This document shows positions 41,524-56,774 of a DNA stretch of 64,000 nucleotides, piece after piece; position 1 is the stretch's first letter; the number at the start of each line of letters is the position of its first letter. The stretch lies in the NCBI GenBank assembly GCA_030425645.1, contig JAUHZK010000002.1, positions 1-64,000 of the forward strand, read 5' to 3'. Origin of the DNA: Gammaproteobacteria bacterium. Its GTDB lineage: Bacteria; Pseudomonadota; Gammaproteobacteria; JAPPPA01. A model generated the notes under the pieces. It was not told the origin of the DNA. It searched no databases and worked only from the letters and a program-made list of their open reading frames with translations. The translations under genes were made by a program, and so were the position numbers.

Positions 41524-41850
41524 GTGTCTGAATACGTTAATTATTTAAAAGAAGTATTGGCGCCGTTAGGCGCGGTGCAGCCGCGCAAAATGTTCGGCGG
41601 CCACGGCATCTTTTATGACGGCGTGATGATTGGCCTTGTTGCTGATGACAGTCTCTATCTAAAAGTCGATAAACAGACCGAAGGCGAGTTTATTGGCTTG
41701 GACTTGCCGGCCTTTGAATACGAGAAAAACGGCAAAACCTTTGCCATGTCTTACCGGCTAGCGCCTGAAAGTATTTACGATGACCCTGATGACGCCCTGC
41801 AATGGGCGCGTCTAGCCTACGAGGCGGCGTTAAGGGCTAAGAAGAAATAG
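41524..41850 (+). CDS. TfoX N-terminal domain protein
   Basis: A 108-residue protein starting at GTG. The sequence LAPLGAVQPRKMFGGHGIFYDGVMIGLVADDSLYLKVD is the TfoX/Sxy N-terminal domain. Full Sxy/TfoX regulators of competence also have a C-terminal helix-hairpin-helix domain, which this lacks, so a competence role is doubtful. The stop TAG is at the very edge of the transposon: its first two bases are target DNA and its G is the first base of the transposon, recreating the original stop. Confidence 0.85.
   Translation: MSEYVNYLKEVLAPLGAVQPRKMFGGHGIFYDGVMIGLVADDSLYLKVDKQTEGEFIGLDLPAFEYEKNGKTFAMSYRLAPESIYDDPDDALQWARLAYEAALRAKKK
41845..41849. repeat. left target-site duplication (AAATA)
   Basis: AAATA directly outside the left inverted repeat; an identical copy at 59372-59376 lies outside the right one. 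Five-base duplications are the rule for Tn3-family insertion. Confidence 0.93.
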
Positions 41851-41920
41851 GACCAGCGGGGGCATTTGAACGAAAACCTACGGTTTTGAATCCCGAGACC
41901 ACGTCGTAACCGTAGGTTTC
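41850..41920 (+). repeat. left terminal inverted repeat (71 bp)
   Basis: Starts GGACCAGCGGGGGCATTTGA. The first 40 bases are identical to the reverse complement of the right end; four mismatches occur over 71 bases. It contains an internal dyad, AAACCTACGG and CCGTAGGTTT, 26 bases apart. Confidence 0.95.
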
Positions 41921-41927
41921 TGCTGAT

Positions 41928-44864
41928 TTACCCCTTCTCCTCTTCATCTTCAATAAAGTACGTGCCATTGGGTAGCACATGTTTATAGGGCAATAGCGAG
42001 ATATGGGACAGGGTCTCGTCATCGATGTCCTCCCCCTGCTGCCGGAGCTGTTCCACAATGTCATTTATCTTGATCGTGTTCCAGTAAAGAATGGCGTTCG
42101 ACACAAAACTAAGACTGCTGGCCTTATTCATGATTTCCTCATAATCACCGGTAGTGAACTCACCCTGGTCGGCAAAAAAGATCCAGCGCGGCAGCTTGTG
42201 CCTGTATTCTCCTTTATTCAATTGCCGCTGGACGGTTCGACGCAATTCCTGATTCGTCAGGTAGCGCAGAATGTATTCAGTCTTTATGATCCGTCCGAGA
42301 TTGGTGAAGGCTTTAGTGAGGCGATCCGATGGTGAGCTATTGGTCAATCGCTGAACGATTACATGCGCTGGTGCCGTTTTCTGTTTCAGGGAAATGGCCA
42401 CTCGCATCATGTACTCCCATTGCTCCTCAACGATGGCCAGATCAGCAGTTTTGGTGAGCAAATGGTTGAGGTCGCCGTAATCGACGGATTTGTCGATACG
42501 GTAGAGTTGTTGATCCTTTAAATCCCGAATGCGCGGCATAAAGTAGAAGCCGAGCAAATGGCAGAGAGCGAAAACGATTTCCGTATATCCGTGGGTATCG
42601 GTGGTATGTTCCCGGATTTTCAGGACAGTATTGTTTTCCAGTAATCCATCCAGCACATACAGCGCTTCACGGGGACTACAGGAAATGATCTTGGTGCTGA
42701 ATACGGAATATTGATCGGACACATGGGTATAGATCCCGATCGCCTTCTCATAATAGCCGTAGTATCGGGGATAATAAGATGCCAGCAGGCTGTCAGCCCG
42801 AATCTTAAAACGTTGTGCATCCGATGAAGACAAGGTGCCACTACCATGTACGGCACTGAGCGGCAGCTCGTGGTGCTGATTCACGATTTCAGCGCTGGCG
42901 TCGATGAGGGTTTCCTCGCGAATATAATATTGCAGGATGTGCCTGAGCATATCGACGGTCACACCCTTCACGCTGGCGCTCATCGACACAACACCCAGGT
43001 TAGTGGCCTGTGAAATGATGGCGGCCATCAGGCTTTTATAAAAGGCTTTTGGTCGCGATTGGTGGTGCTGAATGGGAACAAAGTGACGGCTGTAGTGCGT
43101 CATTTGATCCACTTCCATGAGAAGTTGTTCGATGCGGATGGTCGGCATGTGCGCATCAATCACTTTTTGCAGTCGGCTGACTTTATCCGGCACATCCAGC
43201 TTGTCGTCGCGCTTGAGTTTCAGCCGGCCATTTGTAATCTCGGCGAAGTTATCCAGCCCAAACCTTTTTTTCGCTTCGGACACGGCTTCGTGGAACTGGA
43301 TTGAAATGGCGGCGCGGACTTCGTGCGGAGGTGGTTGTTGCAGCTCGGTATAGACGGTTTGCCGGGTTTCATCCCAGTTAGGCTCGTTCAAGGTCAGGTC
43401 CCAGAATGAAACATGTTGCTTGCTTTGCGGCAAATAGAGATCACCGGAGCGCAAGGCGTCTTTCATCGCCAGCGCAAGGCCCATTTCCCAAACGTTGCGA
43501 TTGATGTTGCCGCTTTGATCTTTGAGGCTGCGGCGCAATTCGCGGGGAATGAAGGCTATCGGTGTCGTCTCTGGTAGCTTCTTGAGTTCTCCACTATCCA
43601 ACTGCTGGACGATCTGGATGGCCTTGATCAGTGGCCCGGAACCTTTCGCTACTTCAAAGGGTAAGCGGATAAAGTCGGCAAAATACTTCCGTAAACTGGG
43701 ATATCGGGTCAACAACAAATCGCAGTAACCACGTTCCTCCAGGCGCTTGAAGATATGCAAATCGTCAATGGAGGCGAGCAAGTGTTTCTCGTCAACGCGC
43801 TGCCACAGGTCACGCTTGTATAACGGCTGCTCATTGGGCCATTCCAGCAGCACATGGGTGGTATCAAGTACCGCATCAATCGCTTTCTTTTGCCGTTTGC
43901 GAAATTCCTTGTGCTTCTTGTCGTGACTGTTTTTGGTTTGCCGACACAGCTCCGTCATGTACTGATCGTGCATTTTTACCAGGTGATCGAGCAATATCTT
44001 TCGGGATTCCAGCAGGAAACACACCATCAGGGCATAACGCTTGTGATCCTTGAAGCGTTTCATATCCTTGGCGCTGTAGCGCTTGGTTAACCGGTACAGG
44101 TAATGAAGGAAGGCGGTATCGATAACCTTTTCTTCAAATTCATTAATGCCAGTGGCCACCAGGTTGCTGTAGCGTTCCAAATAGCGTTTCAGCGATGAAA
44201 TTTTTGCGGCGGGTGGATATTCCTTGAGTTGATTGAAATAGGTACGTTGATTCCCGCCAGAGGTTTGCAGCAGATCATCGATGGCACTCCGCAGTTCTGG
44301 CGACATCTGCTCAAACACTTGCTCAAAGAGCTGAGCGTGCACCTGGTTGCAGATGCGAATGATTTGCCGCTCAATGGTCGTAGGTCCCGGTAAAACAATT
44401 CGGTTCAACAACAGGTAGCGCTCTGCTCGATGAAAGAGTTCATCCGGCAGAAGTCCCTGTCGTGCGTGTGCTTCTACCCAGCGATCCAGATCGGCTTCCA
44501 CTTTTTCATCAAAGCGCCTAAACCCCAGGTATTTGAGGATATTATTGCGGTGTTCCAATAAGGTGGCTTCCCGTTCGGGCACTTCCACGGTGAGTGTCGG
44601 TGGCAGCTCAAGTTGACTACTCAGGTAGCTGATCACCCGAGGCGACAGGTCATTAAGCTGGTTCAGAAACCGGCCATAGAGACGCATAGCACAGAGTTGG
44701 ATGGCAATGCCTAAGCGGTATTGTTTTCGGTATTTGTTGACCACCTGGCAATCGCGCCGATTCAGGGTCCAGTCGCGCACCATTTCCTCGTCGGAAAAGC
44801 GTTGCGGCAACATCAACGGCTGGTAGCGTTGCTGATTCGTCAGGAACTTTTCTTTGGCTGTCAT
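41928..44864 (-). CDS. tnpA: Tn3-family transposase TnpA
   Basis: A 978-residue DDE transposase that cuts and joins the terminal repeats in replicative transposition. The N-terminal DUF4158-like region is LTNQQRYQPLMLPQRFSDEE; the middle is basic and helical. The C-terminal catalytic part includes VLDGLLENNTVLKIREHTTD, HTDTHGYTE-like sequence (here TTDTHGYTEIVFALCHLLGF) with the family's D-T-H-G-Y-T block, and YWNTIKINDIVEQL near the end. Length is normal (950-1020). It stops eight bases inside the left repeat. It lies 25 bases downstream of the cation-transporter gene on the same strand. Confidence 0.96.
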   Translation of the reverse strand: MTAKEKFLTNQQRYQPLMLPQRFSDEEMVRDWTLNRRDCQVVNKYRKQYRLGIAIQLCAMRLYGRFLNQLNDLSPRVISYLSSQLELPPTLTVEVPEREATLLEHRNNILKYLGFRRFDEKVEADLDRWVEAHARQGLLPDELFHRAERYLLLNRIVLPGPTTIERQIIRICNQVHAQLFEQVFEQMSPELRSAIDDLLQTSGGNQRTYFNQLKEYPPAAKISSLKRYLERYSNLVATGINEFEEKVIDTAFLHYLYRLTKRYSAKDMKRFKDHKRYALMVCFLLESRKILLDHLVKMHDQYMTELCRQTKNSHDKKHKEFRKRQKKAIDAVLDTTHVLLEWPNEQPLYKRDLWQRVDEKHLLASIDDLHIFKRLEERGYCDLLLTRYPSLRKYFADFIRLPFEVAKGSGPLIKAIQIVQQLDSGELKKLPETTPIAFIPRELRRSLKDQSGNINRNVWEMGLALAMKDALRSGDLYLPQSKQHVSFWDLTLNEPNWDETRQTVYTELQQPPPHEVRAAISIQFHEAVSEAKKRFGLDNFAEITNGRLKLKRDDKLDVPDKVSRLQKVIDAHMPTIRIEQLLMEVDQMTHYSRHFVPIQHHQSRPKAFYKSLMAAIISQATNLGVVSMSASVKGVTVDMLRHILQYYIREETLIDASAEIVNQHHELPLSAVHGSGTLSSSDAQRFKIRADSLLASYYPRYYGYYEKAIGIYTHVSDQYSVFSTKIISCSPREALYVLDGLLENNTVLKIREHTTDTHGYTEIVFALCHLLGFYFMPRIRDLKDQQLYRIDKSVDYGDLNHLLTKTADLAIVEEQWEYMMRVAISLKQKTAPAHVIVQRLTNSSPSDRLTKAFTNLGRIIKTEYILRYLTNQELRRTVQRQLNKGEYRHKLPRWIFFADQGEFTTGDYEEIMNKASSLSFVSNAILYWNTIKINDIVEQLRQQGEDIDDETLSHISLLPYKHVLPNGTYFIEDEEEKG

Positions 44865-44889
44865 CGGGGCTCATTTTACTCTGGTGATG

Positions 44890-45489
44890 TCACTTGCATT
44901 TTTCATTACTCGCATCCTTGATGATGTCTATTCCCCCGCGAATAACGATGATTGAAATTGCCAGACCAATTAGAAGATCGGGATATCGTGATTCGAGCGT
45001 GTATACCAACACGCCGCCAATGATGATCCCAAGGTTTGCTATGACGTCATTCTTTGAAAAAATCCAACTGGCCCTCATGTGGACTTCACCTTCTTTGTGC
45101 TTGGCAATCAGTTGGAGGCAAATAACGTTTGCGACGAGCGCTGCTGTCCCGACGGCAATCATGAACAACGACTCCGGCTCGCTGCCCCAAACGAAACGGC
45201 GAAAGACGTCAACAAATACAGAGGCTCCAAGTATTATTTGAAATATCCCACTGATGTGAGCCGCTCTGATTTTGGCTGACAATGGCCTGCCTACGGCGTA
45301 CAGTCCAATCCCGTAAACGGTTGCATCGGCCAGCATATCGAGCGAGTCCGCGATTAACGCTGTCGATTCACTGAGAATGCCGAGCGTTATCTCCACCAAA
45401 AACATGAACGCGTTGATGCCAAGGAGGATCATTAACACACGACTTTGTTCTTTGTTGTTTATCTCGACTTCACAACCACAACCTGACAT
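44890..45489 (-). CDS. cation diffusion facilitator-like transporter
   Basis: A 199-residue membrane protein with about six helices. It starts MSGCGCEVEI, a short Cys-rich leader. The second helix has STALIADSLDMLADATVYGI with the D-x3-D pair that binds metal in CDF exporters, and the fifth region is WIFSKNDVIANLGIIIGG. The cytosolic C-terminal domain of classical CDF proteins is missing, so this is the compact form. Predicted role: efflux of a divalent cation (Zn, Cd, Co) by exchange with protons; the metal is not determinable. Last cargo gene before tnpA. Confidence 0.85.
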   Translation of the reverse strand: MSGCGCEVEINNKEQSRVLMILLGINAFMFLVEITLGILSESTALIADSLDMLADATVYGIGLYAVGRPLSAKIRAAHISGIFQIILGASVFVDVFRRFVWGSEPESLFMIAVGTAALVANVICLQLIAKHKEGEVHMRASWIFSKNDVIANLGIIIGGVLVYTLESRYPDLLIGLAISIIVIRGGIDIIKDASNEKCK

Positions 45490-45567
45490 ATTTTCCCCTT
45501 TGATGTTCTGAATCTGCCTCTCCAGGCCTTATTCACCTTTGGTGGAGTGACACTCAACCAATGTTAT

Positions 45568-46695
45568 CTACTGAGCGTTGGCGTCTGACTCGGGACCTGC
45601 CTCACCGGGGGCGCGATCCTGTACATAGTCTTCACCGCATTGCAGCGCGTGTTCCGCACGTGCCAATTCGCGCCCAAAATAGGCCGCGTGATCCAGACGA
45701 CTTATCAGCTCGGCCTCAATAACACTTACATACAAGGCTGCGGCCGAACTTGCGGTGAACATTCGGTCCAGTACGCCCTTGTTACTATAATGTTCGAGTA
45801 CTAGTCGTTGGTGTATCCGATCAAGGTAGACAACAAAATAACCGGCTGGATCTAATACCAGCTTCCCAGGTTCCTTTGCCGCTTTAATCGGTATCGGGAT
45901 CACATCAGAAGGCGCGTCGGCAAATGGGCCGGGATCGTTACCCGCAGACTCGACAATCAATTTCCGCAGGGCCGACACATCGTCATTGCCGACTTGCGCG
46001 ATCACTTTCACCTGCCTGCGAAACGCCTCAACCTGTTCAGGTCGAATATTCTTCAGCAGAGGACGTTTGCCCTTGGCGTCGATGATGCGCATGTTTTCGT
46101 TAACACCCTGCTCAGCGAGTGCAAACAACGACTGCCCTGGCAGATGGCCTATCGCCTTACGTGTGTCTTCACCGCAGATGATCAGGAAACGGATGTGGGG
46201 ATTCGCCAGGGTGTTGCGGATCAGGTGTTCGATACCAAGATTTTCTGTATGCAGGCTACCGACCATAGACAAGCCTTCAATATCGGCATCGCTCAGTGCC
46301 GTGACCAGGTGATCGGAATTGAGCGTGCACACGGCCACCGGCGCCTGAAAACGAACGACCCGATAATCGCCGGGCAAGGGCGGCCAACCCTCACGTGGTT
46401 CGGGTTCTTCCCTGGCGCAATGAGCGCCTTCAGCGACGGCAGGGTCGAGTTCGGCCGCCAGGTTCTGTGCGCCGGCAGGCCAACACACCTCGCAGCCCAA
46501 ACACTCGTAGCGTATTGGTTCAAACAGAGCGTGAGCTTCTTCTAGTTGTGAGCCTAATGTCGCATTGATCGTATCAGACGCTTTTAGTGTGTTTACCGTG
46601 TCCTGGAAACAACCGCAACGCCAGCATTTCTTCGCGGCCATGGCATGGCGAAGTTCTTGTTCAATCTTGGCTAACGGTATTCGTGCCTTTTCCAT
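45568..46695 (-). CDS. MtrA-like corrinoid-protein homologue with DUF4346-like C-terminal domain
   Basis: A 375-residue protein. Residues 20-75 hold two Cys clusters (C24/C27/C29 in KKCWRCGCF, C65/C68/C71 in YECLGCEVCW), likely Zn or Fe-S binding. Residues 115-235 resemble subunit A of archaeal methyltetrahydromethanopterin:CoM methyltransferase: VAVCTLNSDHL, SLHTENLGIEHLIRNTLANP, HIRFLIICGED and GHLPGQSLFALAEQGV. In archaeal MtrA the histidine of the equivalent GHITGQ motif coordinates cobalt (from memory, His84); here it is His184. Residues 275-365 (YFVVYLDRIHQRLVLEHYSN, HAAYFGRELARAEHAL) look like DUF4346. No methanogenesis genes are near. Corrinoid binding is inference. Confidence 0.8.
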   Translation of the reverse strand: MEKARIPLAKIEQELRHAMAAKKCWRCGCFQDTVNTLKASDTINATLGSQLEEAHALFEPIRYECLGCEVCWPAGAQNLAAELDPAVAEGAHCAREEPEPREGWPPLPGDYRVVRFQAPVAVCTLNSDHLVTALSDADIEGLSMVGSLHTENLGIEHLIRNTLANPHIRFLIICGEDTRKAIGHLPGQSLFALAEQGVNENMRIIDAKGKRPLLKNIRPEQVEAFRRQVKVIAQVGNDDVSALRKLIVESAGNDPGPFADAPSDVIPIPIKAAKEPGKLVLDPAGYFVVYLDRIHQRLVLEHYSNKGVLDRMFTASSAAALYVSVIEAELISRLDHAAYFGRELARAEHALQCGEDYVQDRAPGEAGPESDANAQ

Positions 46696-46741
46696 GATGT
46701 TGTCGGTCTCATTATGTGTGAATTCATCGAAGCCAAAGCAT

Positions 46742-47257
46742 TTATCCCTGCGTTCTCAACAAATTCTCTATTGCTTGCGGACTCACATGCCTTGATGTGT
46801 GTGTGATGCGCCCATCCTTATGTATATAGAAAACAAGCGGCACGGCACTCACGCCATAGAGATTGGCCGTATTACCATCCGCATCGTAGAGCACCGCATA
46901 AGGTAGCCTGTGTTGCAGTGCATAACGCTTTGCATTTTCCAGGCTGTCGGCCAGCCCGGCGTTGATGGCCACCAGTTGTAAACCCTTTGAGCCGTATTCT
47001 CGGTAAACCTGCTTCAGTGTCGGAATCGACTTTTTGCAATAGGGACACCAGGTGGTGAAATACACCAGTATCACCGGACCTTTCGCAAGATATTCACTCA
47101 ATCGTTGGGGTTTTCCTGCCAGATCGGGCAGTGTGAATTCAATGGCTTGTTGGGGCGTTTGGGTTTTACTGGTGCCCCCCTCTAATTTGGATGAGTCGGA
47201 CGGGTTGCAGGACGCCAGGGTTAAGCTGATAACCATTAATGATATAAGACGTTTCAT
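46742..47257 (-). CDS. TlpA/ResA-like thioredoxin lipoprotein
   Basis: 171 residues. The lipobox LTLASC implies a lipid anchor on the periplasmic side. The thioredoxin fold has the active site TTWCPYCKKS and the cis-proline region YGVSAVPLVFYIHKDG, with ELAGKPQRLSEYL-type lead-in (here LPDLAGKPQRLSEYL). Such proteins reduce disulfides in the periplasm. The start at MKRLISLM overlaps the preceding SMR stop by four bases (ATGA); a longer frame is not supported. Confidence 0.88.
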   Translation of the reverse strand: MKRLISLMVISLTLASCNPSDSSKLEGGTSKTQTPQQAIEFTLPDLAGKPQRLSEYLAKGPVILVYFTTWCPYCKKSIPTLKQVYREYGSKGLQLVAINAGLADSLENAKRYALQHRLPYAVLYDADGNTANLYGVSAVPLVFYIHKDGRITHTSRHVSPQAIENLLRTQG

Positions 47258-47589
47258 GCACCCGGTCCTGTCGATGCGATATTCAACACAACAATACCGG
47301 CCACCACCATGACAACACCCATGCCTTTCCAAAGACCGGCCTTCTCGTGCAAGGCCAGCACACCCAGCAAGGCGACCCCGGCGGTGCCACCGCCCGCCCA
47401 GATGGGATAGACGGTACTGACCGGCAAAGACACCAGCGCCAGACTGACGGCATAAAAAGCCAAACCGAATGCGGCGAGCGCCACCACCGTGGGCAAAGGT
47501 TTGCTAAAGCCCTGACTGAAACGCAACGCCAACGCTGCGGTAATTTCCGCAACGATGGCCAACGCCACCAATAACCAGTCATAGGACAT
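47254..47589 (-). CDS. small multidrug resistance (SMR) transporter, member 1 of a pair
   Basis: A 111-residue four-helix protein. It has the essential membrane glutamate (ALAIVAEITAALALRFS, near residue 16) and the conserved VYPIWAGGGTAGVALLG. SMR proteins work as antiparallel dimers exchanging protons for cationic compounds (or guanidinium). It lies 16 bases after a second SMR gene; adjacent pairs often form heterodimers (EbrAB, MdtIJ). The substrate is unknown. Confidence 0.92.
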   Translation of the reverse strand: MSYDWLLVALAIVAEITAALALRFSQGFSKPLPTVVALAAFGLAFYAVSLALVSLPVSTVYPIWAGGGTAGVALLGVLALHEKAGLWKGMGVVMVVAGIVVLNIASTGPGA

Positions 47590-47605
47590 GTTGTATCTCC
47601 TTCAC

Positions 47606-48007
47606 TCAACAGCCTGACGTTTTTTCGGAAACCCGGTTGATCGCAATGACACCGATGACGACCAGTGTGATACCAACCAGCTTCAACAGATTAATGCTTT
47701 CACCCAGTGCGACGACACCGAGTAACGCAACACCCGCTGTACCGCCGCCTGCCCAGATGGGATAAGCCACACTGACCGGCAGTTTTTTCATTACCTGGCT
47801 GACGAGATATAGCGCCAGTGTGAAGGCGGCGAGCGCGATACTGGTGGGCAACGGCAAAGTAAATCCTTCACTAAAGCGCAGCCCCAGCGCACCAGTAATT
47901 TCAAAACAGACCGCCAAAGCGAGCAACAGCCACGCGGATGATGGCGGCTTTTTGTCATCTTCCTTGGGCGGGCAAACTGTCGAAAGCGATGTATCCTTGT
48001 CCATCAT
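47606..48007 (-). CDS. SMR transporter, member 2 of a pair
   Basis: A 133-residue protein with a hydrophilic N-terminal extension of about 25 residues (including VCPPKEDDKKPPSS) before four helices. It has the key glutamate in AVCFEITGALGLRFSEGF and AYPIWAGGGTAGVALLGVVA. The extension is absent from its partner, in line with unequal topology in heterodimeric SMR pairs. Confidence 0.92.
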   Translation of the reverse strand: MMDKDTSLSTVCPPKEDDKKPPSSAWLLLALAVCFEITGALGLRFSEGFTLPLPTSIALAAFTLALYLVSQVMKKLPVSVAYPIWAGGGTAGVALLGVVALGESINLLKLVGITLVVIGVIAINRVSEKTSGC

Positions 48008-48030
48008 GCTACCCTCGTTTTGCCTTGCGC

Positions 48031-48699
48031 CTAGTCGTCACTGATACGGCCGTCGAGCAGATGAATGCGGCGCTCGGCGCGTGATGTCAGCGCCTCACTA
48101 TGAGTGACCGTGATTAGGGTGAGACCGTCGTCATGCAATTCATCCAGCAACGCAAAAATAGCCCGAGCATTCTGGCTATCCAGATTGCCGGTGGGTTCAT
48201 CGGCCAGTAACACTTTGGGTTTGTTAATCAGTGCCCGAGCAATGGCCACGCGCTGCATCTCGCCACCGGACAATTCATCTGGCAAATGATTAGCGCGCTC
48301 CGCCAGACCGACGCGTGCCAGCAGTTCATCGGCTCTGGACGCGAGATGCTTTTGCCGGGCGAACAGCGTGGGCAGCAGTACGTTTTCCCGGGCGGTCAAC
48401 GTGGGTTGCAAGAAAAACTGTTGAAACACAAAACCGATGGTATCGGCGCGCAGGCGGGTGAGGCCCTGTTCTTTCAGGGTGGTGGTTTCCTGGCCCGCGA
48501 TCGTGACCTGACCGGTGTCTGGCTGATCCATCGCGCCGATGATGTTCAGCAGCGTGCTCTTGCCGGAACCCGATGGCCCCACCACGGCGACAAACTCCCC
48601 TTGTTGAATCGTCAAATCGATACCGTCCAGGGCATGCACCTGCTCCCGGCCCCGGCGATAGGTTTTGTTCACGTTGTTAAGTGTTATCACATCAGACAT
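48031..48699 (-). CDS. MacB/LolD-type ABC transporter ATP-binding protein
   Basis: A 222-residue ATPase. Walker A is GPSGSGKST, signature LSGGEMQRVAIARAL, Walker B VLLADEPTGNLD. These belong to the MacB/LolD/FtsE group, whose partners are mechanotransmitting FtsX-type permeases working on periplasmic substrates rather than moving them through the membrane. It overlaps the permease gene by eight bases. Confidence 0.95.
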   Translation of the reverse strand: MSDVITLNNVNKTYRRGREQVHALDGIDLTIQQGEFVAVVGPSGSGKSTLLNIIGAMDQPDTGQVTIAGQETTTLKEQGLTRLRADTIGFVFQQFFLQPTLTARENVLLPTLFARQKHLASRADELLARVGLAERANHLPDELSGGEMQRVAIARALINKPKVLLADEPTGNLDSQNARAIFALLDELHDDGLTLITVTHSEALTSRAERRIHLLDGRISDD

Positions 48700-49849
48700 T
48701 GCGTACGGCCTCCATCGGGGATGCGTGAGCGGCCTTCAGGCCGGGGATAATGCCCGCCAAACCACCGGCCAGTGCGGCGAACAGTACCGAAGCGGCAATG
48801 ACTAAAGGATCAAACAGGATAAAGCGGCCAGCCGGAGCATAGGGCAATAGATTGTGTAGCCACTCATCGGTAACCGAGGCAAAGATCATACCGAAGACAA
48901 CACCGGTCACACCGCCTCCGAGACACAGCAGCAGTGTTTCAAACAGCACGATGCGGAAGATGTGACTTGGCGAGGCACCGATACAGCGCATATAACCAAA
49001 CTCGCGCAACATCTCGAACACGCTCATTAATACTGTATTGATCACACCGAGAAAGCTCACGACTAATGCCACGACAAGCACGGCGGCCATTAGCGTTTTG
49101 CTGGAGCCAGTGAGCGAGGAAATCTGTTGCATGATTTGATCTTTAGTCACCACATAGACATCCGGCAGGGTTTCAATCTTGCCTTTAACCTGTTCAAACT
49201 CTTCCACGTTAGCCAGGCTGATACCGACAGCGGTCAGCTTGCCTTGTTTCTCGAATACCTTCTGCGCGGTCTCCAAAGGCAGGAAAAAGAACCCATCGTC
49301 CTCGCTACCGGTGCGTTCCACAATGCCGGAGACCGTGAACTCGGCGTCGATGTCCGGAAAATAGACCTTGTCACCGACCTCGCGTTTTTCCACCCGGGCC
49401 GCTTCGGCACCTAGGATGATGGAGTTCGGCCCGCTGAACCACTCGCCGCGAATTTGCCAGTGCGGTTTCAGGTCACGATAATTATCGCCCACACCGTAGA
49501 AGAAGATTGCCTTACCCTCATCTTCGATAAGCGAAAAGATCAGCATGCCGGCAGCGGTACGAATGCCGGGTATGTCACCGATTTCCGTGAGGCGACGGGC
49601 ATCAAGAAACTTGGGGATCTCGCCACCGTGGAGGGCCAGCGAAGCCGCTTCCAAGGGGCAGCCTTCAGTTGAAGCCATCATGTGGATGCCTGAGTTGGCC
49701 ATTTCTTCTTGCAGTGCACGATCAAAGCCGGTGTTGAACGACAACAGGCTGAACAGGGCTGCTGTGGCGATGGCGACGCCTGCCATGGACAGGCCGGTTC
49801 GCAGCTTGCGCCGTTGTAAATTCTTTATACTGAGGGTTAGCAGGTTCAT
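48692..49849 (-). CDS. FtsX/MacB-type ABC transporter permease
   Basis: A 385-residue permease. It begins LLTLSIKNLQRRKLRTGLSM with one helix, then a periplasmic MacB-type core domain (about 45-250, with EGCPLEAASLALHG and FPDIDAEFTVSGIVERTGSE), then three helices (including VLVVALVVSFLGVINTVLMS and MREFGYMRCIGASPSHIFRIV-like FtsX region). With the ATPase it should form a type VII ABC machine acting on an envelope substrate, plausibly together with the neighbouring lipoprotein and outer membrane protein. Confidence 0.93.
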   Translation of the reverse strand: MNLLTLSIKNLQRRKLRTGLSMAGVAIATAALFSLLSFNTGFDRALQEEMANSGIHMMASTEGCPLEAASLALHGGEIPKFLDARRLTEIGDIPGIRTAAGMLIFSLIEDEGKAIFFYGVGDNYRDLKPHWQIRGEWFSGPNSIILGAEAARVEKREVGDKVYFPDIDAEFTVSGIVERTGSEDDGFFFLPLETAQKVFEKQGKLTAVGISLANVEEFEQVKGKIETLPDVYVVTKDQIMQQISSLTGSSKTLMAAVLVVALVVSFLGVINTVLMSVFEMLREFGYMRCIGASPSHIFRIVLFETLLLCLGGGVTGVVFGMIFASVTDEWLHNLLPYAPAGRFILFDPLVIAASVLFAALAGGLAGIIPGLKAAHASPMEAVRNV

Positions 49850-49859
49850 GGCAGTGTCC

Positions 49860-50285
49860 CTACGACCGATTGGTGAGAATGACGGTCGCCTGGATTTTCA
49901 CTTCCGATTCCGATTCGTCGCCTTCGTCATGTTTTTCTTCGCCTTCTTCTTCGTGTTCATTTTGAGATAACACGACGCCTTGAACCTTCAACGGTGTGCC
50001 GATGGTAATATCAGAGGGCATACCCTCCACCGGAGGGATAACTTCGATCATCACGAGCTTATCTTTGAAATAAAAGTCTTCTCCGTCTGCACACATGCCG
50101 CCAAAGCGGCCGGTGACTGTAATCGTTTTGCCTGTGTAATTGTAAGCCTGTTTCACTAGATCGCTCATCGCGATAACAGGTAAATTGGGATCGAGTTTTG
50201 CCTGCTGGGTGTCCTTGTCGGAGCAACCGGTGACAAATCCGAGGCTGAGTGAAAAGATGATTGTCATTAGTGAGAGAGATTTCAT
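49860..50285 (-). CDS. lipoprotein with predicted OB-like domain and His/acid-rich tail
   Basis: A 141-residue protein with lipobox FVTGC (Cys21). The middle (YNYTGKTITVTGRFGGMCADGEDFYFKDKLVMIEV) reads like a small beta-barrel of the tRNA_anti/OB type found in periplasmic proteins. Residues about 107-126 (EHEEEGEEKHDEGDESES) are a strongly acidic, histidine-containing stretch suited to metal capture. It lies between the ABC permease and the FMN-binding-like protein. Family unassigned. Confidence 0.7.
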   Translation of the reverse strand: MKSLSLMTIIFSLSLGFVTGCSDKDTQQAKLDPNLPVIAMSDLVKQAYNYTGKTITVTGRFGGMCADGEDFYFKDKLVMIEVIPPVEGMPSDITIGTPLKVQGVVLSQNEHEEEGEEKHDEGDESESEVKIQATVILTNRS

Positions 50286-50287
50286 AG

Positions 50288-50872
50288 TTATTCTCCTTTA
50301 GGGAAAGCGTTAGAGTTAGTTTCGGAATCGGTATTCAGCACCGCCTCGTAGGCAAGCATCTTTTTGACTAAACGGGCGATTTCGGCGGAGGCTTTTTCAG
50401 CGCCTGCCACGGGCTGGATATTCAGCGAATCCTTTTGGGTCTTGCCCCGGAACTGACCGAGAAAGTCATCGCTCTTGAGTGCCTTGCGTTCTCGCTCACG
50501 TACCCGTTGCAGGTAGACACCACGGATACGGCGATCGGCATCCATTCCAACCACGGTTTCGATGACGCCATACTCGCCCGTACCCGCGAGTGCCAGCACC
50601 CAGCCAAGGGTGCGGCCGTCGGCCGTGATCGCGTAGAGGTTGTATTCCACTTTCTCGGTAGGATGCAGCGGCTCGCCGGCCAGCGCCTCGATACGTTCGA
50701 TCTGCTCCGGTTTGAGCTTGTACACTTCGGTTTTATAATCTTTGGCTTCCGGGAACAGCCTGACCATGGTGCGCTCAGGGTCACGCCAGACACACACATC
50801 GGCCTGTGCTAGTGAAGACAGCAACAACAGGCTGATAAAAAGAAATCTAGTTACATTGGATTTACAAGGCAT
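50288..50872 (-). CDS. FMN-binding-domain-like periplasmic protein
   Basis: About 194 residues with a signal peptide (FLFISLLLLSSLAQA). Family-like features: YAITADGRTLGWVLALAGTGEYGVIETVVGMDADRRIRGVYL and a C-terminal helix. The usual flavinylation motif (S/T-G-A-T-x-T/S) is replaced by AGAEKAS, so the Thr that carries covalent FMN is missing; it may bind flavin differently or not at all. The start is just after the stop of the barrel gene; an upstream in-frame ATG would overlap it by 50 bases. Confidence 0.75.
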   Translation of the reverse strand: MPCKSNVTRFLFISLLLLSSLAQADVCVWRDPERTMVRLFPEAKDYKTEVYKLKPEQIERIEALAGEPLHPTEKVEYNLYAITADGRTLGWVLALAGTGEYGVIETVVGMDADRRIRGVYLQRVRERERKALKSDDFLGQFRGKTQKDSLNIQPVAGAEKASAEIARLVKKMLAYEAVLNTDSETNSNAFPKGE

Positions 50873-50873
50873 G

Positions 50874-51884
50874 TTAAAACTCCCAATAGAGTTGCAGCGC
50901 CAGGCTGTGTTCCCCGGCACCATTCAAGCGTTGATAGGTATCCGCCACGCGCAGAATGAAATTTTTGGGTAGCCGATAGGTAAGGCCTAGCGCGACTTCC
51001 CGGGAATTGTTGGTACTATTCCATCCAGCGAGCACTGTATTGATCGAAAGTTTTGCGTTTATATCGTAATCAGCCATCAGCGTGGCACCGTAGACTGAAC
51101 GGCCATCATCTTCCCCGGCAATGAGTTCACCGCGTAGCAACCAGGGCACCCAATCAACTTCCATATCCAGTGCCAACCGCTGACGGTCAAAACTGCCTTG
51201 TTGAAGAAAGACGTCGTCATCTGTTACCACTTGGCCGTCCATATAGGACAAGCCCCAACGCCAATCCTCATTCTGCATTCCAAGCCGAGCAACCAGCAGC
51301 TTGTTGCTGTCCTGGTCATCGAGTTCTCCTGTACCCTGGGAGACCGACACGGCATAATCAAAGGGACCGGTGTACCCGAACACCTGCACACCGGTATCCA
51401 GTTTAATGCCCAGTGTCACAGCCTCCTGGGTCTGGATTAGTTGTCGTTCCGTATCCAGATTTGCTAATAAGCCAAAGGGTAAGATGTAGCGGCCCGCGCG
51501 TAGATTAATGCGACCCAGCGGTCCTTTTACCTGGGCATAGACTTGATAGGCTTCCAGTTCTTTCAGGTTGTTATTGGCATCTACCTGACCCACAAGGATG
51601 TATCGATCGCCACTTTTATCACTGATCACATGGCGCAGGTTGAGAAAGGCACCGTGTAACCGGATGCCTTCTTCGCCTGCACCCCAAAGTGGATCTTGTG
51701 ACATAGCACGCCCATCGAGTCCGCCGGAAATCTGGGTTGCATCCGCCTGGGCGGGCGCATTGGCCACGAGAAACAGGGCCATCACAAGGGACGTCAGAAA
51801 AGCACCCCGCAATAAGCGATGCGGAAATGACCATTTATCATTTTCGAAAACATCGAAATGTAAGGGCAATAAAAAACCGCTCAT
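50874..51884 (-). CDS. outer membrane beta-barrel protein of metal module B
   Basis: A 336-residue protein. A 24-residue hydrophilic N-region precedes a signal-like segment (LTSLVMALFLVANAPAQA). The mature part alternates short strands (YILVGQVDANNNLKELEAYQVYAQVKG, LNLRAGRYILPFGLLANL-like blocks) and ends LALQLYWEF with a terminal Phe, the mark of barrels inserted by BAM. Its start overlaps the arsR-like stop (ATGA), so it is the first structural gene under that regulator. It resembles hypothetical porins; specificity unknown. Confidence 0.75.
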   Translation of the reverse strand: MSGFLLPLHFDVFENDKWSFPHRLLRGAFLTSLVMALFLVANAPAQADATQISGGLDGRAMSQDPLWGAGEEGIRLHGAFLNLRHVISDKSGDRYILVGQVDANNNLKELEAYQVYAQVKGPLGRINLRAGRYILPFGLLANLDTERQLIQTQEAVTLGIKLDTGVQVFGYTGPFDYAVSVSQGTGELDDQDSNKLLVARLGMQNEDWRWGLSYMDGQVVTDDDVFLQQGSFDRQRLALDMEVDWVPWLLRGELIAGEDDGRSVYGATLMADYDINAKLSINTVLAGWNSTNNSREVALGLTYRLPKNFILRVADTYQRLNGAGEHSLALQLYWEF

Positions 51885-52267
51885 CCCAGGCGTTCCTCCA
51901 ACATTTTCAGGTCGCCCTTCAATGCTTTTAATAAATCTTGGCTATGGAGTCGGTAATAGACCATCTTGCCGTCATCACGCTTGCTCAACCACCCCTGGTT
52001 GCGCAACAGCTTCAATTGATGCGACGTGGCTGCCGTGCTTAATTGCAGCACATGGGCGATATCGCATACACAGAGCTCCCCCTGGGCCAGGGCCAGCAGG
52101 ATCTTGAGCCGGGTGGTGTTGCCGAGGAGCTTGTAAAATTCTGCGAGTTCGGGAAGCTTTTTCTCTTCTTTCGCCAGAGCTGCCTTGATCTGTCCGACCT
52201 TGTTATGGTCAAAACAGGGGACATTACAAACGTCGGCCTTCGTCGGCAATGCGGCGACCTTTTTCAT
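51881..52267 (-). CDS. ArsR/SmtB-family repressor, CadC-like
   Basis: A 128-residue winged-helix metal sensor. The N-terminal arm has Cys14 and Cys18 (ADVCNVPCFDHNKVGQIK) and helix 3 has ELCVCDIAHVL (Cys66, Cys68). This four-cysteine arrangement matches the alpha-3N site of CadC, which senses Cd, Pb and Zn. The recognition helix is STAATSHQLKLLRNQGWL. It is the first gene of the leftward module B run, overlapping the barrel gene, and is divergent from the DsbA-like gene, so it probably represses both directions from the operator nearby. Confidence 0.93.
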   Translation of the reverse strand: MKKVAALPTKADVCNVPCFDHNKVGQIKAALAKEEKKLPELAEFYKLLGNTTRLKILLALAQGELCVCDIAHVLQLSTAATSHQLKLLRNQGWLSKRDDGKMVYYRLHSQDLLKALKGDLKMLEERLG

Positions 52268-52281
52268 AGTTGACTTCTCAT

Positions 52282-52296
52282 TTCGATAGTTGCGAA
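52282..52296. promoter_or_regulatory. candidate operator for the CadC-like repressor
   Basis: TTCGATAGTTGCGAA is a dyad (TTCG-N7-CGAA) located 15-29 bases upstream of the repressor start, flanked by CATT and AATG. Position and form fit ArsR-family operators (compare TTCAA-N-TTGAA), but no direct proof exists. Confidence 0.5.
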
Positions 52297-52377
52297 AATG
52301 ATACTATGTCCATTTCCATCAGTCAAATTACGCTGTACAACGATAAACTCAGGCCAATTGGGAGCAAAAACAACGCT

Positions 52378-53004
52378 ATGAAGCCTTTGCTGCAACACAT
52401 TCACGCCCTCAGGAAGCATTTATTGATCTTTGGCATTGTAGGAGCATTACCGCTAATGGCGGCTGCGAAGGATGAATTGGCACTGGGTAGCGAGCACGCA
52501 CCGGTGACCCTTATCGAGTATGGGTCATTGACCTGCGATTATTGCATACACTTTCACAGAGAAGTTTTACCCCATATATCGTCACAATATATTGAGACCG
52601 GACGCGTGCGCTTTGTTTTCCGCGATTTCCCGACCAGCGAGAACGCGCATCGAGGAGCCGTAGCCGCCCGCTGTGCCGGCGACCAATATTACAAAATGCT
52701 GGAGATCCTTTTTACGGAGGTCGGAAGATGGTCGCTGTCGAGAGACGTTGATGCGGCATTGGCGCATCAAGCTACCTCTATTGGCTTAAAGAAGAAACCG
52801 TTTCTTCACTGCCTCAATGATACTCGCCAACACGTCGTCGTCAGCAAAGAACAACAAGACGCTAAAACCAGGTTTGCTGTATTGGGTACGCCGACATTTT
52901 TGATAAACGGCAAGCTTGTACGCGGCAAAAAAACGTTTGCAGAGATGGAAATCTTATTAAATGAGGCATTGACCGCACTTCGAGACGAAAAACCAAAAAA
53001 ATAA
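52378..53004 (+). CDS. DsbA/BdbD-like periplasmic thiol oxidoreductase
   Basis: About 208 residues with a signal peptide (LLIFGIVGALPLMAAAKDE). The active site SLTCDYCIHFHREV and FVFRDFPTSENAHRGAVAAR, with the cis-proline loop VLGTPTFLINGKLV, match the thioredoxin_4/BdbD group. Probable role: forming or repairing disulfides in the cargo's periplasmic proteins. I prefer ATG at 52378 because the signal peptide starts there; ATG at 52306 is possible. It is the only rightward cargo gene of the metal modules. Confidence 0.88.
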   Translation: MKPLLQHIHALRKHLLIFGIVGALPLMAAAKDELALGSEHAPVTLIEYGSLTCDYCIHFHREVLPHISSQYIETGRVRFVFRDFPTSENAHRGAVAARCAGDQYYKMLEILFTEVGRWSLSRDVDAALAHQATSIGLKKKPFLHCLNDTRQHVVVSKEQQDAKTRFAVLGTPTFLINGKLVRGKKTFAEMEILLNEALTALRDEKPKK

Positions 53005-53022
53005 ATGCGTCGTCTAACTCTA

Positions 53023-53036
53023 TACTACCGGTAGTA
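53023..53036. repeat. perfect 14-bp palindrome
   Basis: TACTACCGGTAGTA, in the 66-base gap between the DsbA-like gene and the recombinase remnant. Too short to judge as a terminator; it may mark a former recombination or binding site. Confidence 0.5.
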
Positions 53037-53070
53037 CAACACCTTTACCGATAAGAACTGCATGAAGCAG

Positions 53071-53190
53071 CTAATCGACATTCATAAAACTCGCCATATT
53101 CTCCATCAGGATCACGGATGCGTTTTCGGATAGCTGCTGACCTTCTTCAATATATTCCCAGACGGTGGCATCGCTTCTCCAACCCCCCCT
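53071..53190 (-). pseudogene. C-terminal remnant of a TnpS-like tyrosine recombinase
   Basis: The frame reads GGWRSDATVWEYIEEGQQLS then ENASVILMENMASFMNVD and stops at 53071. It aligns with the C-terminus of the complete recombinase at 56833-57840 (GGWKNDATVWEYIEEGQQLS), including its catalytic tyrosine, but DNA identity is clearly partial, so it comes from a related element rather than recent duplication. Only about 40 codons remain; the upstream part is replaced by a methyltransferase fragment. Confidence 0.85.
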
Positions 53191-53191
53191 T

Positions 53192-53392
53192 GGATATATT
53201 GTTGTAATCCTGTTCCAGTAAATCATCAACCAGTGTTGAGGCGCTACCTCCCATATCGATGATGTGTGCTGTTTTACCCACAATCAGTCGCTGAATAAAT
53301 TTCAACGAACGGATAGCGTGGGGCTGGAACCAGCTCACAGCATCAGCCGACTTATCAGAATAAACCGTCTCCCAGTGTTGCTTAGTGCCCAT
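53192..53392 (-). pseudogene. truncated class I SAM-dependent methyltransferase
   Basis: The first 67 codons of a methyltransferase: KQHWETVYSDKSADAVSWFQ then IIDMGGSASTLVDDLLEQDY, which contains the SAM-binding motif I. The family normally has about 200 residues; here the frame is cut after NNIS and continues into the recombinase remnant. It has a good ribosome binding site (TAGGAGG) and overlaps the YkvA-like gene by 11 bases, so it once belonged to module A. An intact relative would methylate a small molecule or metalloid; substrate unknown. Confidence 0.8.
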
Positions 53393-53807
53393 TAGAGCCT
53401 CCTAAAACATAGATCGAAACACTCAGATCCCCGATGATATACCTACAGTAATACCCTATGCCAAATGCCAACGTTAGCCAGATGAGTATAATCACTCCAG
53501 CCGCCCACCAATTTCGGGTAGGCTGAAATGACGTTTGTTCAACGCGCTTTAAACAGTCATGCCACACCTCCTCCGGGAGGCTCTTGATCGCCAGGTAAAT
53601 TCCGAGCGGCAGAATGAGGGCGTCGTCCAAATAGCCAATGATCGGAATAAAATCAGGGATAAGATCAATCGGACTCAGCGCATAGGCCACGACGAAACCC
53701 ACGAGGCATTTCGTTACTATCGGTGTTCTGGGGTCGCGAGCGGCCAGATAAAGGGCGCGGACATGGTTTTTCATTTGCCGGGCAAAGTGTCTGAGCTTTT
53801 CTCTCAT
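53382..53807 (-). CDS. YkvA/DUF1232 family membrane protein
   Basis: A 141-residue protein. The DUF1232 block VVAYALSPIDLIPDFIPIIGYLDD is unmistakable; a second hydrophobic segment (WWAAGVIILIWLTLAFGIGY) follows. Function is unknown in the family. Its start overlaps the true merR frame's stop (ATGA), implying co-translation with the regulator. Confidence 0.85.
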   Translation of the reverse strand: MREKLRHFARQMKNHVRALYLAARDPRTPIVTKCLVGFVVAYALSPIDLIPDFIPIIGYLDDALILPLGIYLAIKSLPEEVWHDCLKRVEQTSFQPTRNWWAAGVIILIWLTLAFGIGYYCRYIIGDLSVSIYVLGGSNGH

Positions 53808-54206
53808 CGCTCACCCGTTTCCCCGTCGAAAGACTCCAGGATCGGACAACCCTTGTCGCTGGAACCACACAGATTGGTTAGCAGTCGCAGTTCGTCCCGC
53901 AGTGTGGTCAATTCCTCCCAGATGATGCTGAATGTCTTCCAGCTTGTGATGCGCCAGTTCCCGGACTTTGGGCTTGGCTTTTTGCGGGCTTTCCCGAAAC
54001 TGAAGTAGCAGCTTAATTTCATCCAGACTGAATCCCATCTTTTGTGCCCGCTTGATAAAGCGCAGTCGTGAGACATCTTTATCGGAATACAGCCGGACTC
54101 CGGCTTCATTGCGATGTACTTTGGGCACCAGTTTGATTTTTTCATAATAACGCAAGGTATCTGCACTGATCTCCAATGTTGCGACCACTTCACCAATTCG
54201 CATCAT
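53804..54206 (-). pseudogene. MerR-family metal regulator with a +1 frameshift
   Basis: The N-terminal frame reads MMRIGEVVATLEISADTLRY with the winged helix-turn-helix and continues to HHKLEDIQHHL. There an extra base in a GGG run (53917-53919) shifts the frame. The second frame gives EELTTLRDELRLLTNL then CGSSDKGCPILESF and stops at 53804, overlapping the next start. Joined, it would be about 133 residues with metal-loop cysteines C113 and C120. The Cys near position 77 found in divalent-metal sensors (ZntR, CadR) is absent. Either a disabling mutation or a sequencing error. Confidence 0.85.
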
Positions 54207-54209
54207 GAT

Positions 54210-54881
54210 TTATAACCAAAAATAGTATTCATTGAGCAGGTAAACCCCAACGGTCATTAAGGTGATGCCACCAGCAATCTCAAAACCACGACGCCAACGC
54301 TCGATGGTTTTCAGGTTTTCCAACCAGCCGATGCTAACAGCGCCCACGGCAAGCGGGATCACTCGTCCAAGCGCAAATGCTAACATCAACAAACCACCAT
54401 ACATGACCGACCCGATCGAGGCACTCACACCGAGTCCGATCCATAACCCCGGCGAACAGACCGGACAGATCCCGACCGTAAACGGCATACCCAATAAGAA
54501 AGCGCCCCAGAGCGTCGCCGCTCGTTTTCCCCGCAATGGCAACCAGGGCAATGGAATTTTCAACCAACCCGTCCAGAGCAACCCCAGCAAGATCAAAACC
54601 GGCCCGAGAATGACGCCCCATTGCCGACTGAGGAGCGATTGCGCCCAGGCACCACCTAGCGCTGCACCGATACCTAACGCCACATGGGTGAGTATGAGCC
54701 CGGCGGCAAAGGCCAGGCCATAACTGACCGCCTCGCGGAAAGCGCGTGCGCGAGTGACGTAGGCCAGTACAACAGGAATGGAGGCGAAAGCCACCGGCGT
54801 AACGCTGAACAGAAAACCAGCCAAAAAGGCTGCACCCAAACCGGCAACTCCGCCCATTTGCATCCAGGCCGTGGTATCCAT
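54210..54881 (-). CDS. CcdA/DsbD-like membrane protein
   Basis: A 223-residue protein with six hydrophobic segments. The layout matches the CcdA/DsbD transmembrane domain, which carries electrons from cytosolic thioredoxin to the periplasm. The usual Pro-Cys motif of helix 1 is missing (FSVTPVAFASIPVVL has no Cys), while helix 4 has two cysteines as GICPVCSPG (C139, C142). Redox chemistry may therefore differ. It overlaps the thioredoxin gene stop (TGATG) and precedes the MerR gene by three bases. Confidence 0.8.
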   Translation of the reverse strand: MDTTAWMQMGGVAGLGAAFLAGFLFSVTPVAFASIPVVLAYVTRARAFREAVSYGLAFAAGLILTHVALGIGAALGGAWAQSLLSRQWGVILGPVLILLGLLWTGWLKIPLPWLPLRGKRAATLWGAFLLGMPFTVGICPVCSPGLWIGLGVSASIGSVMYGGLLMLAFALGRVIPLAVGAVSIGWLENLKTIERWRRGFEIAGGITLMTVGVYLLNEYYFWL

Positions 54882-55192
54882 CAGTTCGCTTTACCTTGAG
54901 GGGCTGAAGGTTCCACCAATCGCTTCAGAATCGCTTGACGCAGTTTGGCCTTTGAGGGTGGCCCCGAAAATTCCAATTCACCATTCAATGCGATGGCGGG
55001 TGTACTCATTACGCCGAGGCGAACCGCATAATCGATGTCATCGACGACATTGATCTCTTGATAGCGCACCCTGTCGTCGTTCAATTCGGCGATCACCCCT
55101 TTTGTTAGCACTTTGATCTTTTGGCAACGACCGCATCCGGAAGCCGTCAATACTTCCACTAAGACCGATTGGCTTTCCGTTTCTACGCTCAT
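54881..55192 (-). CDS. small thioredoxin-like protein
   Basis: A 103-residue protein with active site TASGCGRCQKIK (C20, C23) and cis-proline loop VMSTPAIALNGELEFSG, matching the thioredoxin_3 group of mini-thioredoxins. No signal peptide, so cytosolic; it probably supplies electrons to the adjacent CcdA-like protein. The start MSVETESQ overlaps the MerT-like gene by four bases; a longer frame is not supported. Confidence 0.88.
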   Translation of the reverse strand: MSVETESQSVLVEVLTASGCGRCQKIKVLTKGVIAELNDDRVRYQEINVVDDIDYAVRLGVMSTPAIALNGELEFSGPPSKAKLRQAILKRLVEPSAPQGKAN

Positions 55193-55566
55193 GACAGACT
55201 TTCCCACCACAAGGTGAGTGGCAGCAAAGCGTAAGCTGCAACAAGGGAAAGCAGAAGTATCACGGTGCTCGCCCACAATATTGCCTTTTGCCATCGCAAG
55301 CGGCTTTTGTCCGCCAGAGAGCAGACCTTGATCCGATGCAATCGCCAGTAGCTATAAATCAATATGGCGGCAGTTAATGAAAAAGTGATGACTTTATACT
55401 GCGACAATGTCGTTAACCACGGCACCACGGCAACCATCGAAGCCACAGCGCTTCCGAGCCCAAGCGCGACCAATACAATCGGCAGTGCGCAACAGGTGGT
55501 ACCGATAATGGCAAGCCCCAGGCCGCTGAATAAAGAGGTATCGGTTTTCATTTGCTCTGTGTTCAT
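55189..55566 (-). CDS. MerT-like membrane transport protein
   Basis: A 125-residue protein with three hydrophobic segments. The first helix has IIGTTCCALPIVLVALGLGS; the adjacent pair C25-C26 is the mercury-accepting site of MerT. MerT also has two cysteines in the cytosolic loop; here only one is seen (C82 in RIKVCSLADKS). Expected role: metal-ion movement across the inner membrane, working with the HMA protein next door. Mercury itself is doubtful without merA. Confidence 0.82.
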   Translation of the reverse strand: MNTEQMKTDTSLFSGLGLAIIGTTCCALPIVLVALGLGSAVASMVAVVPWLTTLSQYKVITFSLTAAILIYSYWRLHRIKVCSLADKSRLRWQKAILWASTVILLLSLVAAYALLPLTLWWESLS

Positions 55567-55585
55567 CGAAATAGAATCACTGTAA

Positions 55586-55897
55586 TCACTCTTGTTTGGG
55601 ATTTATGGGTTGCACCTGAAATTGGCGTAAGGTAAAACCGGAATCGTTGATCAAGGTTTTAAGCGATGCTTGATCCATGGGTTCTGGCGTATCCGCTCCA
55701 AAGATCACTAGCCCATCGTTCAATTTGATTTCCACACTGGATGTATCTACGCCATCGAGCGCTTTGATTTTCTTTTCGATCCCGTAGGCACAATAAGGAC
55801 AGGCCATGCCATCAACATGCAGCTCATAGCGTCTTTCAGCCGCCTGCGCCATAAATGAAAGCATCATTAATGCTGCAATAAATAAACACCGTCTCAT
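55586..55897 (-). CDS. periplasmic heavy-metal-binding HMA protein (MerP-like)
   Basis: A 103-residue protein with a signal peptide (FIAALMMLSFMAQAA). The HMA motif is VDGMACPYCAYGIEKKIKAL, with C33 and C36. The protein is longer than MerP at the C-terminus (QFQVQPINPKQE). It should capture a soft metal in the periplasm and pass it to the MerT-like protein encoded 19 bases downstream. Confidence 0.9.
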   Translation of the reverse strand: MRRCLFIAALMMLSFMAQAAERRYELHVDGMACPYCAYGIEKKIKALDGVDTSSVEIKLNDGLVIFGADTPEPMDQASLKTLINDSGFTLRQFQVQPINPKQE

Positions 55898-55924
55898 GGT
55901 TAAACTCCTAAATCTGTTGTCTCG

Positions 55925-56740: not shown

Positions 56741-56774
56741 AAACTGATCCTCAAATGACTATCACTTAGGAATC

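Follow-up and report, generated by a model that had tools for sequence, protein, structure and literature searches.

What is a relative of MtrA, the corrinoid subunit of a methanogen methyltransferase, doing among metal genes on a gammaproteobacterial transposon? The question is raised by one reading frame in the window, by which we mean the whole 64,000-nucleotide stretch of DNA that was analysed; the frame is uninterrupted from ATG to stop and is the sole MtrA gene in the host genome. A preliminary description had read it as an archaeal MtrA-like protein with two Cys clusters and a DUF4346-like tail, carried as transposon cargo.

45568..46695, minus strand: MtrA-like protein, 375 aa, with a Cys-rich N-terminal domain, an MtrA corrinoid-type domain and a DUF4346 domain

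Profile searches returned significant relations to both MtrA and DUF4346: a Pfam scan matched residues 99-262 to PF04208 (MtrA; E=1.7e-40, 138.9 bits against a gathering threshold of 25) and residues 281-360 to PF14251 (PterinBD-DUF4346; E=8.9e-23, 81.3 bits against 29.6), while MtrA chains in the PDB matched by sequence at 1e-26 to 1e-32, the best being those of Methanothermus and Methanocaldococcus (about 1e-31 to 1e-32). The resemblance is far beyond chance and the protein is, by sequence, a true MtrA-domain homologue, as the preliminary description had proposed; the tail that it had called DUF4346-like was borne out as well, and the motifs that it had picked out (TENLGIEHLIRNTLANP, IRFLIICG and GHLPGQ) are all found in the protein. 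NCBIfam NF002128 (PRK00964.1-6), a model of long bacterial MtrA-like proteins, aligned over nearly the whole length (model positions 13-374 of 390; E 1.5e-154) with 514.8 bits, under its cut-off of 568, which the best score among 369 genomes of the class, 548 bits, also fails to reach; the methanogen equivalog TIGR01111 missed its cut-off by far (136.5 bits against 249.15). Weak NF002128 matches elsewhere in the class cover only model positions of about 320-370, and we rejected them as partial or spurious. The full Pfam scan of the protein gave no corrinoid domain of the CFeSP (HgcA) type.

An AlphaFold2 model built from 19 family members (pLDDT 70.8; mostly 75-95 in the MtrA and DUF4346 domains, poor in the N-terminal 110 residues) matched MtrA structures alone at E<=0.001, the cobalamin complex 5laa among them, so that the comparison proposed in the preliminary description came out in favour of MtrA. 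TM-scores of this predicted model on the target were 0.80-0.83 for 5l8x and 5laa, and identity to MtrA structures was 38-40% in the Foldseek alignments.

To judge the corrinoid site, we used the cobalamin contacts given for M. fervidus MtrA by Wagner et al. 2016 (PMC4915002), which fall on H184, E151, T150, G154, N161, Y111 and D110 of the 375-residue protein, with Val61 replaced by Leu. His184, claimed beforehand as the cobalt ligand, is the histidine of GHLPGQ and the equivalent of His84, and is kept across all 25 Cys-type relatives (the window included, near-identical Planococcus plasmids counted once). Thr53, Gly57 and Asn64 are likewise invariant in the 25, as are the meander residues Gly109, Pro112 and Asn116; 24 relatives have Glu54, 24 have Tyr18 and 20 have Asp17, and at Val61 the conservative replacement Leu is found almost throughout. 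Mean identity to M. fervidus MtrA across the 25 relatives is 84.5% for the eight cobalamin-contact residues against 38% for the remaining domain columns once the meander residues are also set apart (20,000 random draws, p about 0.001). Because the contact residues are far more conserved than the other columns, the B12 site is, on these alignments, under constraint, and B12 is probably bound.

The N-terminal domain is conserved in a different manner, through its cysteines. Both clusters seen earlier, C24-x2-C27-x-C29 and C65-x2-C68-x2-C71, are there and are conserved: C24, C27 and C29 are invariant in 24 of 24 relatives where present, and C65, C68 and C71 in 25 of 25; to these six a seventh, C93, adds itself downstream, again in all 25. 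This invariance spans Proteobacteria to Planococcus, whose protein retains the pattern KCxxCxC ... CLGCEVCxP. The domain would suit either an Fe-S cluster or a site for a thiophilic metal, and could also serve in simple metal trapping. CGC tails end many relatives, and the 375-residue protein has no such tail. The Planococcus plasmid protein (L021 7350-8729; L020 464-1840), annotated as a DUF4346 protein only, has several ACGC repeats behind its second Cys cluster.

The element that carries the gene could be delimited to the base.

41850..59371, whole element: complete Tn3-family transposon, 17,522 bp, with inverted ends and target duplication
41850..41920, plus strand: left terminal inverted repeat
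41928..44864, minus strand: tnpA, Tn3-family transposase (DDE_Tnp_Tn3), 978 aa (PF01526 1.1e-137, PF13700 1.5e-40)
56833..57840, minus strand: tyrosine recombinase, TnpS-like (PF00589 8e-14)
58046..59095, plus strand: KfrA_N coiled-coil protein, TnpT-like (PF11740 2.9e-24)
59301..59371, minus strand: right terminal inverted repeat

The 71-nt inverted ends are 94% complementary, their outer 38 of 38 bp are identical, and a 5-bp target duplication, AAATA, lies at 41845-41849 and 59372-59376, which gives base-level support to the earlier placement of the gene as cargo of a metal-gene transposon. The PF00589 and KfrA_N proteins stand at the right end and may be counterparts of TnpS and TnpT, the pair that Tn4651-type elements have instead of a serine resolvase. 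Tn4651-like relatives on plasmids of Alteromonas and Salinimonas are about 82% identical in their ends, tnpA, recombinase and KfrA-like gene; their cargo is chromate resistance (chrBA), whereas here it is the MtrA operon. No relatives of the transposon were found among the phages searched, nor any among the viral contigs searched. The insertion point lies between convergent TfoX_N and GST genes (41845-41850; 59352-59376), and the right inverted repeat now contains the end of the GST reading frame. At 53071-53392 lie remnants of a tyrosine recombinase, which resemble the final part of the recombinase at 56833-57840, and of a methyltransferase-like ORF; they are perhaps a sign of earlier nested insertion or module exchange.

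Within the transposon, eleven minus-strand ORFs run from a CadC-like repressor gene (52267) to a CDF gene (44890) with gaps of at most 78 bp or overlaps, and from this spacing they form an apparent co-transcribed operon, of which the MtrA-like gene is the tenth. They are listed in order, the MtrA-like gene standing between the last two.

51881..52267, minus strand: CadC-like ArsR/SmtB repressor, 128 aa, with N-terminal CxxxC and a CVCD metal motif
50874..51884, minus strand: predicted porin-like outer-membrane protein, by eye, with no Pfam match; the true start is probably downstream of operator copy 2
50288..50923, minus strand: predicted secreted protein with no Pfam match
49860..50285, minus strand: small predicted lipoprotein with no Pfam match; its N-terminus, MKSLSLMTIIFSLSLGFVTGC, reads by eye as a lipoprotein signal
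48692..49849, minus strand: MacB/FtsX-type ABC permease (PF02687 4e-19, PF12704 8.3e-19)
48031..48699, minus strand: MacB/LolD-type ABC ATPase (TIGR02211 8.4e-71)
47606..48007, minus strand: SMR exporter subunit 1 (NCBIfam SMR models down to 4e-21)
47254..47589, minus strand: SMR exporter subunit 2 (NCBIfam SMR models down to 2e-22)
46742..47332, minus strand: TlpA/ResA-like thiol-disulfide oxidoreductase (AhpC-TSA 3.5e-24, ResA model 7.2e-23); the true start is probably nearer 47257
44890..45489, minus strand: CDF-type cation efflux protein, 199 aa (PF01545 1.1e-19, TIGR01297 6.9e-24)

Other cargo genes lie upstream of the repressor.

52270..53004, plus strand: DsbA-like thioredoxin-fold protein, divergent (PF13462 3.9e-34), start codon uncertain
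53811..54206, minus strand: MerR-type regulator whose C-terminal metal-ligand region is missing (PF13411 1.2e-19)
54210..54881, minus strand: DsbD_TM/CcdA-like membrane protein
54881..55294, minus strand: small thioredoxin-like protein (PF13192 3.5e-12)
55189..55566, minus strand: MerT-like membrane protein (PF02411 3.3e-07; 30.8 against 32.9 bits, just under the cut-off)
55586..55897, minus strand: MerP/HMA-like metal-binding protein (PF00403 3.8e-07)

The last five (53811-55897) make up a mer-like set without merA. Profile matches to its MerR-type regulator end at about residue 101 of 131, and the gene is probably broken; by sequence it looks frameshifted.

We then asked what the repressor would sense and where it would act. 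Its N-terminal Cys pair and CVCD motif place it in the CadC type, and its phmmer matches include Listeria Lmo1102 (9t6r, 2.5e-22), the most similar, with which DVCNVPCF and ELCVCD align, and S. aureus CadC (7.6e-14), whose construct 1u2w has Gly in place of the second N-terminal Cys; the profile NF033788 matches at 3.7e-24. A palindrome, CATTTCGATNNNTNCGAAAATGATA, occurs in two exact copies, one on each side of the repressor gene, against a chance expectation of 0.00 in the window.

51836..51860, minus strand: predicted operator copy 2 (CATTTCGATGTTTTCGAAAATGATA)
52279..52303, plus strand: predicted operator copy 1, which shares bases with the -10 box of a promoter-like site at 52326-52298 on the minus strand

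Perfect copies are confined to these two in the 2.75-Mb genome, with zero elsewhere. With up to three mismatches allowed, the host (G000) and two further genomes (G241 and G249) have exactly two sites each, all at the MtrA locus, and the short G444 contig has one; a reversed control pattern gave 0 sites in the genomes searched. Among the loci compared, the palindrome adjoins the repressor gene in 16 of the 16 with an in-operon CadC-like gene (as a pair in 12) and is found at 0 of the 9 other Cys-type loci. The repressor thus appears, from the distribution of these sites, to serve the MtrA locus alone, its DNA binding being predicted from the same sites.

To see whether the association with metal regulators extends beyond this transposon, we compared loci from several sources: 18 in genomes, plasmids of Planococcus and Paraburkholderia, and whole-genome matches. 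An ArsR/CadC- or CadR/PbrR-type metalloregulator lies near the gene in 22 of the 25 Cys-type loci, which span Gamma- and Betaproteobacteria, Chloroflexi and Planococcus; since a genome has only 4-6 ArsR genes, we estimate the chance of such a neighbourhood at about 2% per locus. The CadC-like gene is upstream on the same strand in 16 of the 25 and just downstream in two Chloroflexi loci; another ArsR gene is upstream in L017 and in Planococcus L021, and a divergent MerR gene, unrelated to these, adjoins in L015 and L022, its best model being the Cd(II)/Pb(II)-type TIGR02047 (CadR-PbrR), slightly under the cut-off. In L014 the neighbours are a heavy-metal ATPase gene and mercury genes, and L006 and L012 are on truncated contigs. 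Between the repressor and the MtrA-like gene there is often either a MerC-like protein or a pair of SMR subunits, and in L043 a CusA-type pump; the Planococcus plasmid row reads ArsR, HMA, ZntA-type ATPase, MtrA/DUF4346. Behind the MtrA-like gene, relatives encode a thioredoxin-like and then a DsbD_TM protein in overlapping or touching frames; in L016 (2574-2981) and its relatives the former is a membrane protein whose active-site region has a single cysteine (SPxCQ), encoded together with the DsbD_TM protein immediately after the MtrA-like gene. Several loci have a UbiE-like SAM methyltransferase gene nearby (L042 3-422, L003 7422-8018, L040 2532-3098).

Linkage to metal regulators is seen mostly with no copy of this transposon in view; the order mtrA-like, CDF, tnpA is found again in L006, where 2.66 kb are 83% identical, and a Tn3-type transposase lies downstream of the gene in Dechloromonas L011. 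The gene is mobile and patchy: its closest relatives are in gammaproteobacterial MAGs, full-length matches occur in 4 of 369 genomes of the class and 2 of 398 in a draw from the phylum (own genome counted in each), and it was not found in one 88% complete genome of the same genus (G112) or in the E. coli genomes searched. Two further genomes among the 369 have MtrA-DUF4346 without the Cys domain. Relatives of this kind in L045 (9506-12809) and L044 (9318-10202) have other surroundings, by eye a sulfide:quinone-reductase-like and a DsrE-like ORF in L045, and the type is possibly a separate sulfur-related subfamily.

We wondered whether the hosts could supply the partners of a methanogen enzyme. 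In six host genomes the searches gave neither an MtrH match above cut-off nor any MCH, the cyclohydrolase of the H4MPT pathway, with methanogen controls positive for both; four host genomes had no extra pterin methyltransferase, their two Pterin_bind proteins per genome being FolP- and MetH-sized, as expected for folate synthesis and MetH. Because these partners are lacking, we rejected a role as part of a methanogen-like Mtr complex, and the family name of NF002128, a methanopterin methyltransferase, ill suits its bacterial members. The host does carry MetH, and hence uses B12, together with another B12-binding-domain protein.

These observations make it probable, as far as sequence can tell, that the protein is a metal-responsive, B12-binding resistance protein. 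We propose more tentatively that it is a corrinoid protein induced by metal and encoded in a mobile operon for heavy-metal resistance, and that it most simply methylates the ion. The repressor would be released by a thiophilic ion of the Cd(II)/Pb(II) type, or perhaps by Hg or Bi. Once bound to the Cys domain, this ion would be acted on by the protein-bound corrinoid, most simply by methyl transfer, giving an organometal that would be volatile or exported through the SMR or ABC systems (in relatives through the MerC-like protein or a P-type ATPase). Thioredoxin- and DsbD-like partners would keep cysteines or cobalt reduced, and DUF4346, speculatively, may bind a partner, since it also ends the dihydropteroate-synthase-like family TIGR00284. 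The working principle would resemble that of HgcAB, carried out by a corrinoid domain of unrelated type; methylation of the metal by the bound corrinoid, for which we argue by analogy, is possible and open to real doubt. Ready methylation of Cd(II) or Pb(II) by methylcobalamin is not known, which counts against methylation, as does the failure to find a methyl-donating enzyme in the host genomes searched.

Trapping of the ion is an unlikelier account, in which the Cys clusters (with the tails of relatives) bind the metal and pass it to exporters while the MtrA domain is a former B12 domain or binds a corrinoid or other ligand only structurally. The seven cysteines, the ACGC repeats and the CGC tails suit it, as do the efflux genes (CDF, SMR, ABC, RND, P-type ATPase) in or beside the same operons; so does the lack of a methyl-donor enzyme, none having been seen in searches for MtrH and MCH in six host genomes and Pterin_bind in four. 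Trapping alone, however, requires neither MtrA nor DUF4346, and if no corrinoid were bound there would be little reason for His84, Glu54 and the residues that contact the nucleotide tail to be so strictly kept. The same anatomy could run in reverse, with cob(I)alamin on the protein taking methyl groups from methylmercury, organolead or organotin and the inorganic ion then exported. SMR exporters handle lipophilic cations and mer genes adjoin in L011 and L014, both in keeping with such dealkylation, but the regulators are of a type that senses inorganic Cd/Pb and a methyl acceptor is not evident; we regard it as improbable.

Still less probable is a C1 bypass under metal stress, by which the protein would supply methyl for methionine synthesis or spare B12 when metals poison MetH. 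Its precedent is a prediction for methanogens, in which MtrA would donate methyl groups to the methionine synthase MesA (Price et al. 2021, PMC7857596); here, however, we recognised no methionine-synthase-like or MtrH-like gene in the conserved neighbourhood, the host has MetH, no MtrH was found in the six host genomes searched, and the predicted operators are confined to the metal locus. Transposons do accumulate unrelated cargo, so a methanogen-type gene might simply ride in a metal-resistance element with no role in it. We rejected this as very unlikely on the conserved linkage to metal regulators, found at 22 of 25 loci in several phyla and accompanied by conserved operators, overlapping genes and intact frames.

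How far does the proposed metal-acting corrinoid protein depart from known systems? It has a Rossmann-type corrinoid domain in common with MtrA of the Na+-pumping methyl-H4MPT:coenzyme M methyltransferase (PF04208; PDB 5laa, 5l8x, 8q3v, 9qtq) and shares its cobalt-ligand His, Glu54, most cobalamin-tail contacts and the GxxPxxxN meander; unlike methanogen MtrA, it has no visible membrane anchor, adds the Cys-rich and DUF4346 domains, and occurs in hosts without MtrH under a metal-type regulator. The operon resembles cadAC, pbr and mer operons in its CadC- or CadR/PbrR-type regulators, efflux pumps and mer-type genes, and we know of none of these that contains a corrinoid protein. HgcA has a CFeSP-type domain, of which there is no Pfam match here; HgcB is likewise missing and the regulator is of a different class. 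The likeness to HgcAB lies in a corrinoid protein with a Cys/Fe-S-type part and an ArsR-like regulator nearby: HgcAB, the mercury-methylation system, pairs a corrinoid protein with a Cys/Fe-S-type partner and so methylates a thiophilic metal, and ArsR-like genes adjoin hgcAB (PMC7438021). As to novelty, which the preliminary description had claimed for a B12-dependent or metal-trapping role in this context, the homologue by itself brings none, since bacterial MtrA homologues are already on record as sequences (Wagner et al. 2016, PMC4915002; NCBIfam NF002128); the dedicated Cd/Pb-type regulation may be new, since a literature search limited for the most part to papers free of subscription gave no description of the metal-regulator link, the operators or the transposon of an MtrA-like gene.

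For years, MtrA homologues have been on record in bacteria with no role assigned to them (PMC4915002), and what MtrAH does outside methane metabolism has been called unclear (PMC9635834). The link to Cd/Pb-type regulators, with dedicated predicted operators, makes the question directly testable, and the name under which databases list these genes, "tetrahydromethanopterin S-methyltransferase subunit A", misleads. We know of no enzymes for the reported bacterial methylation of cadmium and lead; if our proposal is true, these are candidate genes for it. If the corrinoid does act on the metal, B12 chemistry on metals would extend beyond HgcA and be mobile between bacteria, and there may, on a cautious view, be a second, HgcAB-independent corrinoid system that makes or breaks metal-carbon bonds, switched on by Cd/Pb-type ions and spread by transposons and plasmids in B12-using bacteria without methanogen pathways. 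The linkage to cadmium/lead-type regulators, here and in distant bacteria, suggests an undescribed B12-based handling of toxic metals.
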